Origin: Robiginitomaculum sp.
Lineage (GTDB): Bacteria > Pseudomonadota > Alphaproteobacteria > Caulobacterales > Maricaulaceae
DNA length: 64,000 nucleotides
Direction: 5' to 3'
Assembly (NCBI GenBank): GCA_021776565.1
Contig: JAJFFQ010000070.1
Span: forward strand, 1-64,000
Position 1 is the first letter of the stretch. Each line of letters begins with the position of its first letter. Below, in pieces: positions 21,541 to 47,420 of the stretch. The translations under genes were made by a program, and so were the position numbers. The notes beneath the pieces are model-generated. The model saw only the letters and a list, made by a program, of their open reading frames with translations, was not told the origin of the DNA and ran no database searches.

Positions 21541-21555
21541 GAACATCTATAGAAC
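21541..21555. promoter_or_regulatory. LexA (SOS) box of lexA: GAAC-N7-GAAC
   Basis: GAAC at 21541-21544 and 21552-21555 are separated by exactly 7 bases. This is the complement of the GTTC-N7-GTTC operator known for alphaproteobacterial LexA. It lies 48 bases before the lexA start and implies autoregulation. Confidence 0.8.
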
Positions 21556-21602: not shown

Positions 21603-22283
21603 ATGTTAACCGCAAAACAACACGACCTCTTGCTTTTTATAAATAAACGCCTGTCAGAGACCGGGATTTCCCCCTCTTTTGACGAAATGAAAGATGCCCT
21701 TGGTCTTGCCTCAAAATCCGGTATCCACCGCTTGATTACGGCACTGGAGGAGCGCGGGTTTATCCGCCGCCTTGCCCATCGTGCGCGGGCACTTGAGGTG
21801 GTCAAACTGCCCGAGGATATGCAGATCAAAGAACAAACCAGTGCTGAAATTACAAATTTTAAACCGGATTTTACCTCTAGCTTGCCTGAACCAGCCAACA
21901 GCGTTGATGTGCCGCTCTTGGGCAGCATTGCCGCGGGCACCCCTATTGAAGCCATATCGCACGAAACCGCCCGTGTGGCGGCCCCTGCGGACATGATCGG
22001 GCGCGGTGAGCACTTTGCACTTACCATCGCAGGTGATTCCATGATTGATGCGGGGATACTGGATGGCGATACAGTCATTATTCGCCGTGCCGACACCGCG
22101 CAAAACGGTGACATTATCGTGGCGCTTGTCGACGATGAAGAAGCTACACTAAAACGACTACGCAAGAAAAATGGCTCTGTTGCACTCGAAGCCGCAAATC
22201 CTGAATATGAGACGCGAATTTTCGGGCCGGATCGGGTCAAGGTGCAAGGCACATTGGTTGGACTGGTACGGCGTTACCATTAG
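21603..22283 (+). CDS. lexA: LexA repressor (SOS regulator)
   Basis: 226 residues from 21603. The N-terminal winged helix-turn-helix (about 1-65, with [20 protein letters not shown]) binds operators; the C-terminal S24 domain self-cleaves when RecA is activated. The cleavage bond is Ala111-Gly112 (SIAAGT), the nucleophile Ser146 (AGDSM), and the general base Lys184 (ATLKRL). A loop of about 25 residues separates the domains, longer than in E. coli, as usual in alphaproteobacteria. comEC lies tail-to-tail beyond it. Confidence 0.96.
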
Positions 22284-45600: not shown

Positions 45601-46103
45601 GCGGCGGCCATATCATCAAGGCGTTGGGTAGCCCGATTAACCTGCCCATTATGAAGCAAGCGGTTGACCATCCCGTCAAACCCGCCGGTGAGCGCCATCA
45701 ACCCTTGTGCATGTTTGCACACATTTTCCCAGGACACATGCGGTAATTCCGACGGATCAACATCAAGAAACGCCATGGAACTTAACGCCATCAAATTTTG
45801 ATAACCTTCTGCGCTTTGGGCAATCAGGGCAATTGTCCCGGCGATGGTGCTGCCGCTTGCATTTTGCCCATCGGCCTCGCCCAATGCCAGGGTTACACCG
45901 ATAAGCGGTTGCACCCCGGCCTCAGCAAGGGTTTGCGAAAATTCCAAAGCACCAAAAAGATTGTTTATGTCCGTCAGGGCAAGGGCTGGCATCTGATAAC
46001 GAAGTGCCAAATCACGCAAACCCGCCACCTCGATAGCACCTTCAAGCAGTGAATACGCCGAACGGCAGCGCAAATGCACAAAAGGCAATGTATCTGCACC
46101 CAT
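42660..46103 (-). CDS. dnaE: DNA polymerase III alpha subunit
   Basis: 1147 residues. Replicative polymerase of the DnaE1 type. The PHP domain (1-280), polymerase domain with catalytic PDFDIDF, helix-hairpin-helix region, OB fold (about 975-1060) and tau-binding C-terminus are in normal order and length. The first PHP motif, HLRVHSAYS in most relatives, reads HLRCRSAYS here, so one metal-binding His is replaced by Arg and PHP activity is doubtful, as in many DnaE proteins. rpsB follows after 182 bp but has its own promoter. Confidence 0.96.
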   Translation of the reverse strand: MGADTLPFVHLRCRSAYSLLEGAIEVAGLRDLALRYQMPALALTDINNLFGALEFSQTLAEAGVQPLIGVTLALGEADGQNASGSTIAGTIALIAQSAEGYQNLMALSSMAFLDVDPSELPHVSWENVCKHAQGLMALTGGFDGMVNRLLHNGQVNRATQRLDDMAAAFGDNLFVEIQRHGRDEEALSEPVLLDWADRHGMAMVASNEPYFANPEMHKAHDALMCISQSTYLSVPDRVRVTPEHYFKTGKQMAELFSDLPELVSNTALVAMRCHYRPLLHDPILPNFTSGDAKDEAEELANQARNGLKQRLANIELAAPEDEYWQRLEHELGIINQMGFPGYFLIVADFIKWANQQDIPVGPGRGSGAGSVVAWALTITGLDPLRFGLLFERFLNPERVSMPDFDIDFCQERRGEVIDYVRQKYGKDRVAQIITFGTLQARAVLRDVGRVMQLPLGLVDRLAKMVPSNPANPVTLKEAIASEPDIQSARDEDEDVAQLLGTALELEGLYRNTSTHAAGVVIGDRPLVQLTPLYRDPRSDVPATQFNMKWAEKGGLVKFDFLGLKTLTVIDRAVTYLAKRDIEVEIDRLPLDDEKTYAMLSEAETVGIFQLESPGMRDVLRKARPDCFEDIVAIVALYRPGPMENIPKYVACKHGREEPMFLHDMVTPITAETYGVIIYQEQVMQIAQVLAGYSLGEADLLRRAMGKKIKSEMSAQRKRFVAGAIKNNVEEAKADHIFDLVDKFAGYGFNKSHSAAYALVSYQTAWLKSHYPVELLAALMSLDIANTDKLAVFVADARRQGIEVCGPDINQSSSDFSVQDGKIYYALGAIRNVGSSAMAHVVQERQTNGAFRDLFDFAMRVDPQALNKRALENLARAGAFDEFEPNRHKAFQSASFLLAHAAHAARERESAQVSLFGDGAPDIGRADLPDPENWEVEEVLREELTAIGFYFSGHPVDAYAQSVKPLGVTSVSNIAVKTGRSGTNLRLAVVVRAKRERTNQRGGRFAFVTFSDASGECEVMAPAEVLNEAGMALKPGSVVLATIRADQAGGDARYKVVKIEPLETVVAAKTGNLRVILEDSDQVASVKACLEALRSRENIPLRRLSLVFETKTGCEVEVQAEGQWPADMAARRALKSLAGVRDAQEISV

Positions 46104-46167
46104 GCTGTATCACCCTCTTAAGCCCTGTTAGCCCTGTCGCGATTCTGTCCAAAGCCTAGAGCATTTC

Positions 46168-46260
46168 CTAACCGCCGAGAACCATAGACCATGCACCAAC
46201 CAGCAATGTCAGACTTACCAGCACAGACAAAGCCGCAGCTTCCCTTAAAATATCACGCAT
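46168..46260 (-). CDS. 30-residue membrane protein under LexA control (new small gene)
   Basis: This frame is too short for routine calling. It starts at the ATG of 46258-46260, with GGAGAG 5 bases upstream, and ends with TAG. The protein begins MRDILREAAALSV and then has a hydrophobic stretch (about residues 8-28) ending WSMVLGG: a charged N-terminus and one membrane helix, N-in. A perfect LexA box lies 20 bases upstream, and a TTGACA -35 element precedes it. Size, topology and SOS control resemble the Caulobacter cell-division inhibitor SidA (29 residues), though I cannot show homology. It lies between the dnaE start and lolD. Confidence 0.75.
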   Translation of the reverse strand: MRDILREAAALSVLVSLTLLVGAWSMVLGG

Positions 46261-46279
46261 TTTATCTCTCCATATTTAT

Positions 46280-46294
46280 GTTCCTATTTTGTTC
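46280..46294. promoter_or_regulatory. LexA (SOS) box: GTTC-N7-GTTC
   Basis: GTTC at 46280-46283 and 46291-46294 with exactly 7 bases between. It matches the alphaproteobacterial operator and the box found before lexA. It lies just downstream of a TTGACA (46314-46319, minus strand), so LexA bound here would block the -10/start region of the small gene at 46168-46260. Confidence 0.75.
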
Positions 46295-46697
46295 TTTCAT
46301 GCTTTGTTCTCATTGTCAAGTGCCCGAGTGCTCGCCCAGCACCATGTTGTTATAACTATCAAAGCGATAATCGCACCTGATCCGCGTCCCCGGGTGGATA
46401 CGTTCGGGGAGTAGAGCTATTCAACACGGCGGAACCCCGATGCAAATCGGTATCCAGTTGCGCCTCTGCTCTGGATGCCGGGTCAAGCCCGGCATGACAC
46501 GAGGATGGTTGGCGTGAGAGGCTTATAAAACGATAACAGTAAATAAGTGTATTTTGTAAACTGTCATCTATGGACGCCCCGCTAGTTTTTTCTCCTTCAC
46601 AAAAAACGGAGGAGGAAAATAAAAGAGATCGCTAAACCGGACAGTAGTGGCCTTCGCTCAAGCCAGAGGGTAGACCATAAACAATGACCCAGACGCG
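46295..46697. other. Spacer between the SOS small gene and lolD
   Basis: No coding frame is convincing. From 46390 to 46460 several segments could pair in nested fashion: GGATAC with GTATCC, TCGGGG with CCCCGA, GAGTAG with CTATTC, and CCGAT-GCAA-ATCGG. This could be a structured RNA or chance G/C pairing. A palindromic half-element follows at 46471-46500. The last 150 bases show nothing definite. Confidence 0.4.
46471..46500. repeat. Palindromic (REP-like) half-element, copy 3
   Basis: CTGGATGCCGGG-N4-AAGCCCGGCATGACAC is a single strong hairpin related to one arm of the elements at 6815-6898, 8176-8258 and 61853-61927, with TGCC replacing TTACC. Confidence 0.6.
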
Positions 46698-47420
46698 TTA
46701 TGCGTGCCTGTGTTGCGGAACAGCCTTGCCCTCTGACATAACCAGCACCCGATCCATATAGGATTGCAGAGCGTCGTTATGAGTGGCCACCAGCGCCGCC
46801 ACGCGCTCTATACGAACCAGATCGAACAGGCTTTGAAACACCGCCGCCGAGGTATTGGGGTCAAGGTTTCCCGTGGGTTCATCGGCCAGCAAAATGCGTG
46901 GTTTGTTGACCAGCGCCCGGGCAATGGCCACGCGCTGTTGTTCACCGCCTGAAAGTTGTGAGGGCTGGTGTGTTAACCGGTCAGCCAACCCCATAATGAC
47001 CAAAAGCCGTTCAGCTTCACGCCGGGCATAGCGTTGACCCTCGCCCGCAATACGCAAAGGCATGGCAACATTATCCAGAGCGGTAAATTCCGGTAGCAGA
47101 TGGTGAAATTGATAGACAAAGCCAATGGCATTACGCCGCACCGCCGTGCGTTCACTATCACCTAATGATAGACAATCCTGCCCGTCAATCCACACCTTGC
47201 CAGCATCGGGTTTTTCCAAAAGCCCGGCGGCATGCAAGAGCGTTGACTTGCCAGAACCGGACGGCCCGATGAGACCAACAAACTCCCCGGCATTAACCTC
47301 AAGATCAACGCCAGAAAGAACATTCAAAACACCATCGCCCGACGGATATTGACGGGTGATGTTTTCAAGACGCAACACGGCCCCTGCCCCGCCATTGGTC
47401 TCACCCGGGTGCTCACTCAT
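46698..47420 (-). CDS. lolD: Lipoprotein-releasing ABC transporter, ATP-binding protein LolD
   Basis: 240 residues. ATPase of the complex that frees lipoproteins from the inner membrane for LolA. Walker [12 protein letters not shown], signature [15 protein letters not shown] and Walker [13 protein letters not shown] are intact. It overlaps the end of the lolC gene by 8 bp, so the two are translated together. MacB-type transporters have similar ATPases, but the adjoining LolC/E-like permease favours Lol. Confidence 0.93.

Follow-up and report, generated by a model that had tools for sequence, protein, structure and literature searches.

Caulobacter SidA is described as an SOS-induced inner-membrane protein of 29 residues that binds FtsW (PMC4211646), an account with which the first-pass annotation of the locus studied here agrees. 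The sidA locus is given as CCNA_02004 (PMC10769358), and a 2026 paper models the peptide, without high confidence, on TM7 of FtsW (PMC13396833). The LexA operator of Caulobacter is listed as GTTC-N7-GTTC (Table 1 of PMC9578287). Among the open-access papers listed by our searches, none reports the adjacency of sidA and dnaE or SidA orthologs.

The DNA analysed here is a stretch of 64,000 nucleotides from Robiginitomaculum sp. (the window), whose minus strand carries the gene order proS-lolC/E-lolD-(peptide)-dnaE-rpsB-tsf. Analysis of the region between lolD and dnaE revealed, in minus-strand order, TTGACA, an imperfect LexA operator, a perfect LexA operator, GGAGAG and a 30-codon frame (Table 1). 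The perfect box, the TTGACA element, the GGAGAG site and the frame had been reported in this order by the first-pass annotation, and all of them were present; the imperfect operator O1 and the adjacency to dnaE are additions to it. The lolD-like neighbour recurs upstream in one further locus (L023) and, about 1.1 kb upstream, in Caulobacter vibrioides (L201, where the lolD-like piece is cut by the end of the locus), with both matches below the cut-off.

Table 1. Coordinates of the features of the locus and of lexA within the window.
Feature	Position	Strand	Basis
dnaE, DNA polymerase III alpha subunit, 1147 aa	42660..46103	-	NCBIfam NF004226, 1420.6 bits
30-codon gene, SidA-like predicted membrane peptide MRDILREAAALSVLVSLTLLVGAWSMVLGG (ATG at 46260, stop ends at 46168, product of 30 aa)	46168..46260	-	translation, conservation, selection
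Ribosome-binding site GGAGAG	46266..46271	-	sequence
LexA operator O2 GAACAAAATAGGAAC, perfect GAAC-N7-GAAC	46280..46294	-	sequence, genus comparison
LexA operator O1 GAACAAAGCATGAAA, imperfect, abuts O2, just 3' of -35	46295..46309	-	genus comparison
-35 element TTGACA	46314..46319	-	genus comparison
lolD, upstream neighbour	46698..47420	-	best NCBIfam match TIGR02211, below cut-off
lexA	21603-22283	+	LexA box at 21541-21555 just upstream; same window

The product of the frame, MRDILREAAALSVLVSLTLLVGAWSMVLGG, starts with the short charged N-terminus MRDILRE and reaches a hydropathy of 2.09 in its best 17-residue stretch. AlphaFold2, run on the single sequence, predicted one helix over residues 2-29 with a mean pLDDT of 95.1. 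These values bear out the earlier description of a charged N-terminus followed by one hydrophobic helix, and the peptide is predicted to form a single membrane helix. Pfam, NCBIfam and the PDB gave no match to MRDILREAAALSVLVSLTLLVGAWSMVLGG; the peptide of C. vibrioides and 7 others of the family were also without a Pfam match. The search of positions 46050-46750 against Rfam, by which only described RNA families are detectable, was also negative. A near-palindrome, TCATGCCGGGCTTGACCCGGCATCC, lies at 46473-46497 on the minus strand between lolD and the peptide gene; it is present as a single copy in the window and may be a dispersed intergenic repeat.

A scan for consensus promoters found no full promoter on the minus strand at the locus. 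Comparison of 10 sequences from the genus revealed TTGAC(A/G) just before O1 in all of them, and at the corresponding site each of the 10 has O1 in the form GAAC-N7-GAA(A/T), with the starts of O1 and O2 separated by 15 to 26 nt. The perfect box pattern occurred 4 times in the window, where 1.38 occurrences are expected over 64 kb, and 52 times in the genome, where its reversed control was counted 105 times, so bare box counts, in window or genome, are weak proof of an operator. The neighbours of 13 boxes were examined (12 of the 52 genome boxes and the lexA box), and five of these boxes precede recA, uvrA/ssb, radA, dinB (pol IV) and lexA. The reading of the box before the peptide gene as a LexA operator, made in the first-pass annotation, is a sound prediction, since boxes of the same type precede these SOS genes in the genome. 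In six others of the 12, no recognised SOS gene, as judged by eye, adjoined the box.

The two remaining boxes among the 12 lie beside mraZ and tcmP. One, GAACGTTACATGAAC (L314; G000:C2:82918-82932), is a LexA-type box close to the regulator gene mraZ, which belongs to the cluster for division and the cell wall; the FtsW candidate is found at G000:C2:72748-73788, about 9 kb from the box on the same contig. The genome contains 2 genes of the FtsW/RodA family, the better of which scored 331.6 bits, the cut-off being 337.5. The other box, GAACATAATAAGAAC (L333), is also of LexA type, and a frame for TcmP, the three-Cys-motif partner protein, starts 22 nt from its first base.

The first-pass annotation had proposed conservation in relatives as a check of the gene, and such conservation was found at the level of both the genus and the order. 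Within the genus, dnaE was located in 13 genomes, and in 12 of these, all except L012, a perfect box followed by the peptide was observed before it; the dnaE search was negative in 2 further genomes of the genus (G001 and G004). Among the 10 genus sequences (45 pairs), mean pS was 0.505 and mean pN 0.133, and the variable sites were distributed over the three codon positions as 18/7/23, of 30 each. These values indicate that the amino-acid sequence of the peptide is under purifying selection.

For the order, a strict test was applied: a perfect GAAC-N7-GAAC box had to be followed, at a distance of 10-130 nt, by a start codon that has a ribosome-binding site and opens a frame of 24-48 residues with a hydrophobic stretch, the frame ending before dnaE. 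The unit was found in 71 of 117 genomes (from a sample of 120, three genomes of family f2 being left out), whereas in 20 dinucleotide-shuffled sets the passes averaged 0.05, with a maximum of 1; on the antisense strand of the order genomes there were 0 passes. By family, the test was passed by 18/24 genomes in the window's family (f1), 20/24 in Caulobacteraceae (f3), 10/24 in f4 and 23/24 in f5. The figure of 71/117 is an undercount, since five of the 6 genomes without a strict pass in the window's family were inspected (L346, L301, L304, L340, L343) and all carry the peptide: four have two imperfect boxes, and L346 has a perfect box without a passing ribosome-binding site. In family f2 the test was passed by 0/21 genomes, with one GAAC box before dnaE among the 21. 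In these f2 loci (L398-L416, L019, L020) the peptide gene may have been lost, moved or changed.

The coincidence of a chance frame with a chance box was ruled out by the shuffle and antisense nulls together with the variation by codon position.

The bacterial order to which the window belongs is also that of Caulobacter, since a genome of this order (G413) has a DnaE stretch 100% identical to that of C. vibrioides DSM 9893. In C. vibrioides (L201) a perfect LexA box, GGAGG and a 29-residue peptide stand directly before dnaE. This peptide matches the NCBIfam model NF033228, 'cell division inhibitor SidA', with 72.4 bits against a cut-off of 35, which settles its identity as SidA. The SidA-like reading of the first-pass annotation is supported by this shared place before dnaE and by the intermediates described below. 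Of the 97 boxes in G413, 30 others were checked, and no frame passed the strict test at any of them. In a wider set of 79 named-record loci near the C. vibrioides DnaE, for the most part from Caulobacter, Phenylobacterium and Brevundimonas with a few others (L211, with 60 nt upstream, was excluded), a wider filter detected the peptide in 77; of the two misses, L246 shows the peptide under another filter and L275 has 223 nt. The boxes at the 77 loci were perfect in 48 cases, loosely defined near boxes, without a null, in 25, and none in 4 (L236, L245, L258, L267). In several Caulobacteraceae the peptide is preceded by a pair of perfect LexA boxes with an exact spacing of 18 bp (L016, L250, L271, L272, L290-L293, L296, L298, L300; two are titled Brevundimonas).

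Over 120 genomes of the order, NF033228 exceeded its cut-off in 14, all of them Caulobacteraceae and all 14 with the match directly before dnaE; weaker matches in this family (e.g. G378, G373, G403, G018) also sit before dnaE. In the window's family 0/24 genomes exceeded the cut-off, and the best match in the window's genome lies elsewhere and is insignificant (E 0.63). When 16 distinct peptides were compared with NCBIfam, 3 lay above the NF033228 cut-off, 3 below it and 10 were unmatched. MRDILREAAALSVLVSLTLLVGAWSMVLGG gave no match to the model at E up to 10 and, by this comparison, lies outside the curated SidA family; in its alignment with the C. vibrioides peptide, 5 of 29 residues are identical.

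When the two groups were compared directly, neither the profile of Caulobacteraceae nor that of the window's genus recovered the peptide of the other side. With the former, MRDILREAAALSVLVSLTLLVGAWSMVLGG ranked 9 of 977 (E 3.1), and 96 and 181 of 2000 shuffles scored as high; the genus profile gave E 5.8 for the C. vibrioides peptide, with 170 and 275 of 2000 shuffles as high. By contrast, when the profile was built from 73 family peptides, none of them from the window's genus, MRDILREAAALSVLVSLTLLVGAWSMVLGG came first of 977 window frames (E 1.4e-6), and with the profile of the window's family the C. vibrioides peptide headed a list of 1016 frames (E 0.001 in its longest frame, 4.2e-4 as a 29-mer). 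None of 4000 shuffled peptides reached the score of either of these two profiles, whereas 1 to 11 of 4000 did so with smaller mixed profiles. The peptides in the profiles had been picked by position, size and hydrophobicity (four from Caulobacteraceae by motif), and the sets are chosen representatives, from which some peptides, among them L025, L161 and L162 from the 27 genomes beyond the order, were omitted as duplicates, as near-duplicates or without further reason. In a joint alignment, D or E occupies the E7 column, just before the helix, in 80 of 82 rows (exceptions L125 and L139), and K, R or Q stands ahead of it in 65; of the peptides outside the 82 rows, L162 has KN and would add a third exception, and L161 is ambiguous.

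Since the direct tests fail while intermediates link MRDILREAAALSVLVSLTLLVGAWSMVLGG and SidA, the kinship is transitive, and the profiles point clearly to homology through intermediates. These data support the view of the gene as a putative positional ortholog of sidA that has diverged beyond the curated family; its likeness to SidA lies in its place, its wiring and its family. It has the features of a broader SidA-like family, namely about 29 residues, a predicted single membrane helix with a short charged N-terminus, a LexA operator, a place before dnaE and linking intermediates; direct similarity to Caulobacteraceae peptides, which is poor here, does not define that family.

Outside the order, a GAAC box was found before dnaE in 27 of 147 genomes, belonging to 11 families; this is a raw count, the shuffle nulls covering the order only. 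Frames were sought solely at loci with a box, and all 27 genomes have a candidate peptide frame. The other 120 of the 147 loci showed no GAAC box before dnaE. Eight further loci have a box in the GTTC orientation alone, seven of them without a qualifying frame; weak frames at L107 and L134, both with such a box, were not counted.

Given the gene, its operators, the conservation of its protein, its position and its kinship through intermediates, all observed here, the best overall explanation is probably that Caulobacter sidA has here a diverged positional ortholog, which encodes a LexA-controlled peptide that blocks the divisome. The induction, membrane insertion, target and effect that we infer would be as follows. 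In the undamaged cell, LexA would sit on the adjoining operators O1 and O2, immediately after the -35 element, and repress the peptide gene. Upon DNA damage, RecA would trigger the self-cleavage of LexA and the 30-residue peptide would be made. It would insert into the inner membrane as one helix with its N-terminus, MRDILRE, in the cytoplasm, an orientation based on the positive-inside rule. The peptide would then bind the late divisome, at FtsW and perhaps also at FtsN, and the FtsW/FtsI/FtsN complex would be held inactive, so that septal wall synthesis would wait for repair while the divisome stays assembled. The binding and the arrest of septal synthesis with an assembled divisome are taken from the description of SidA (PMC4211646), and the functional knowledge of the family used in this analysis is that of the Caulobacter member.

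The peptide gene may possibly be co-transcribed with dnaE. The gap between the two genes is 64 nt and no terminator-like site was found on the minus strand in 46000-46750, so damage might also raise the expression of dnaE. The link with dnaE, present in other families too, suggests a possible joint transcript.

The same wiring could serve a different partner, the peptide being a relative of SidA with another divisome or envelope target in this lineage. The low identity with the C. vibrioides peptide, the absence from the window's genus of the FVWMM-like core of Caulobacteraceae and the lack of an NF033228 match would agree with such a change of target; the place of the gene, its operators and the acidic residue ahead of the helix are nevertheless all shared, and we regard this as unlikely, with a small but appreciable chance. 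A peptide of the TisB/DinQ type, which would depolarise the inner membrane and slow growth without binding the divisome, would be of similar size, with one helix and LexA control, and SOS peptides of this kind are described in E. coli (PMC3567139, PMC8145889). However, position, operators and the sequence series tie MRDILREAAALSVLVSLTLLVGAWSMVLGG to SidA, the retention of an acidic residue before the helix in all but two of the 82 aligned peptides fits a specific contact, and the locus holds no Rfam family, a statement that covers described RNAs only; we consider this explanation quite improbable.

It would be more surprising still if the frame were a leader that tunes dnaE expression by its translation and if the peptide acted on no target of its own. 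Caulobacter does have leader frames (PMC4117421), and the closeness to dnaE without a terminator-like site between them would suit one. Against it, purifying selection acts on the amino-acid sequence, the distance from the peptide stop to the FVHL codon of dnaE varies from 73 to 374 nt in the 10 genus sequences, the gene has its own LexA-type promoter, and SidA, the Caulobacter counterpart, acts in trans (PMC4211646). The preferred reading remains the diverged SidA ortholog.

The part worth following is the wider family of dnaE-linked SOS peptides, which lies mostly beyond the SidA model. SOS division inhibitors are tiny and fast-changing and thus escape similarity-based annotation: in the 120 genomes searched, NF033228 reaches Caulobacteraceae alone, whereas the position before dnaE combined with a LexA box revealed apparent SidA counterparts in 4 of the 5 sampled families of the order and candidates in 11 more. 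This offers a positional route to the division checkpoint of uncultured Alphaproteobacteria, and the family supplies many natural variants for mapping the contact with FtsW. It also raises the idea of division arrest and polymerase supply in one transcription unit. We put forward tentatively, with slightly more doubt than belief, that SidA may be one branch of an old alphaproteobacterial checkpoint, in which a LexA-controlled peptide became fixed before dnaE and one damage-induced transcript would both stop the septum and supply the polymerase alpha subunit; the acidic residue would be the divisome contact, and the helix would have drifted beyond the curated model.

Among the known systems, TisB and DinQ of E. 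coli are likewise SOS-induced short membrane peptides; they differ in acting on the membrane and in their control by antisense RNA, and we know of no link between them and dnaE. YneA, SosA and ChiZ are not known to be related in sequence to SidA-like peptides. They resemble them in being small membrane proteins that SOS or damage induces and whose action on FtsW has been modelled or shown (PMC13396833). The three come from other lineages, YneA and ChiZ carry an outside LysM domain, and the low-confidence model of SidA puts it on the opposite side of FtsW TM7. Caulobacter DidA is also a small damage-induced membrane protein that inhibits division; unlike the window peptide, it has 71 residues, is SOS-independent (DriD) and binds FtsN (PMC4211646). 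Caulobacter SidA (CCNA_02004; NF033228) differs from the window peptide in having 29 residues instead of 30, of which five are shared, in its match to the curated model and in its FVWMM core, where the window peptide ends in GAWSMVLGG. Both belong to the same bacterial order and have about 30 residues, one helix (predicted for the window peptide), a charged N-terminus, LexA operators and a gene directly before dnaE.
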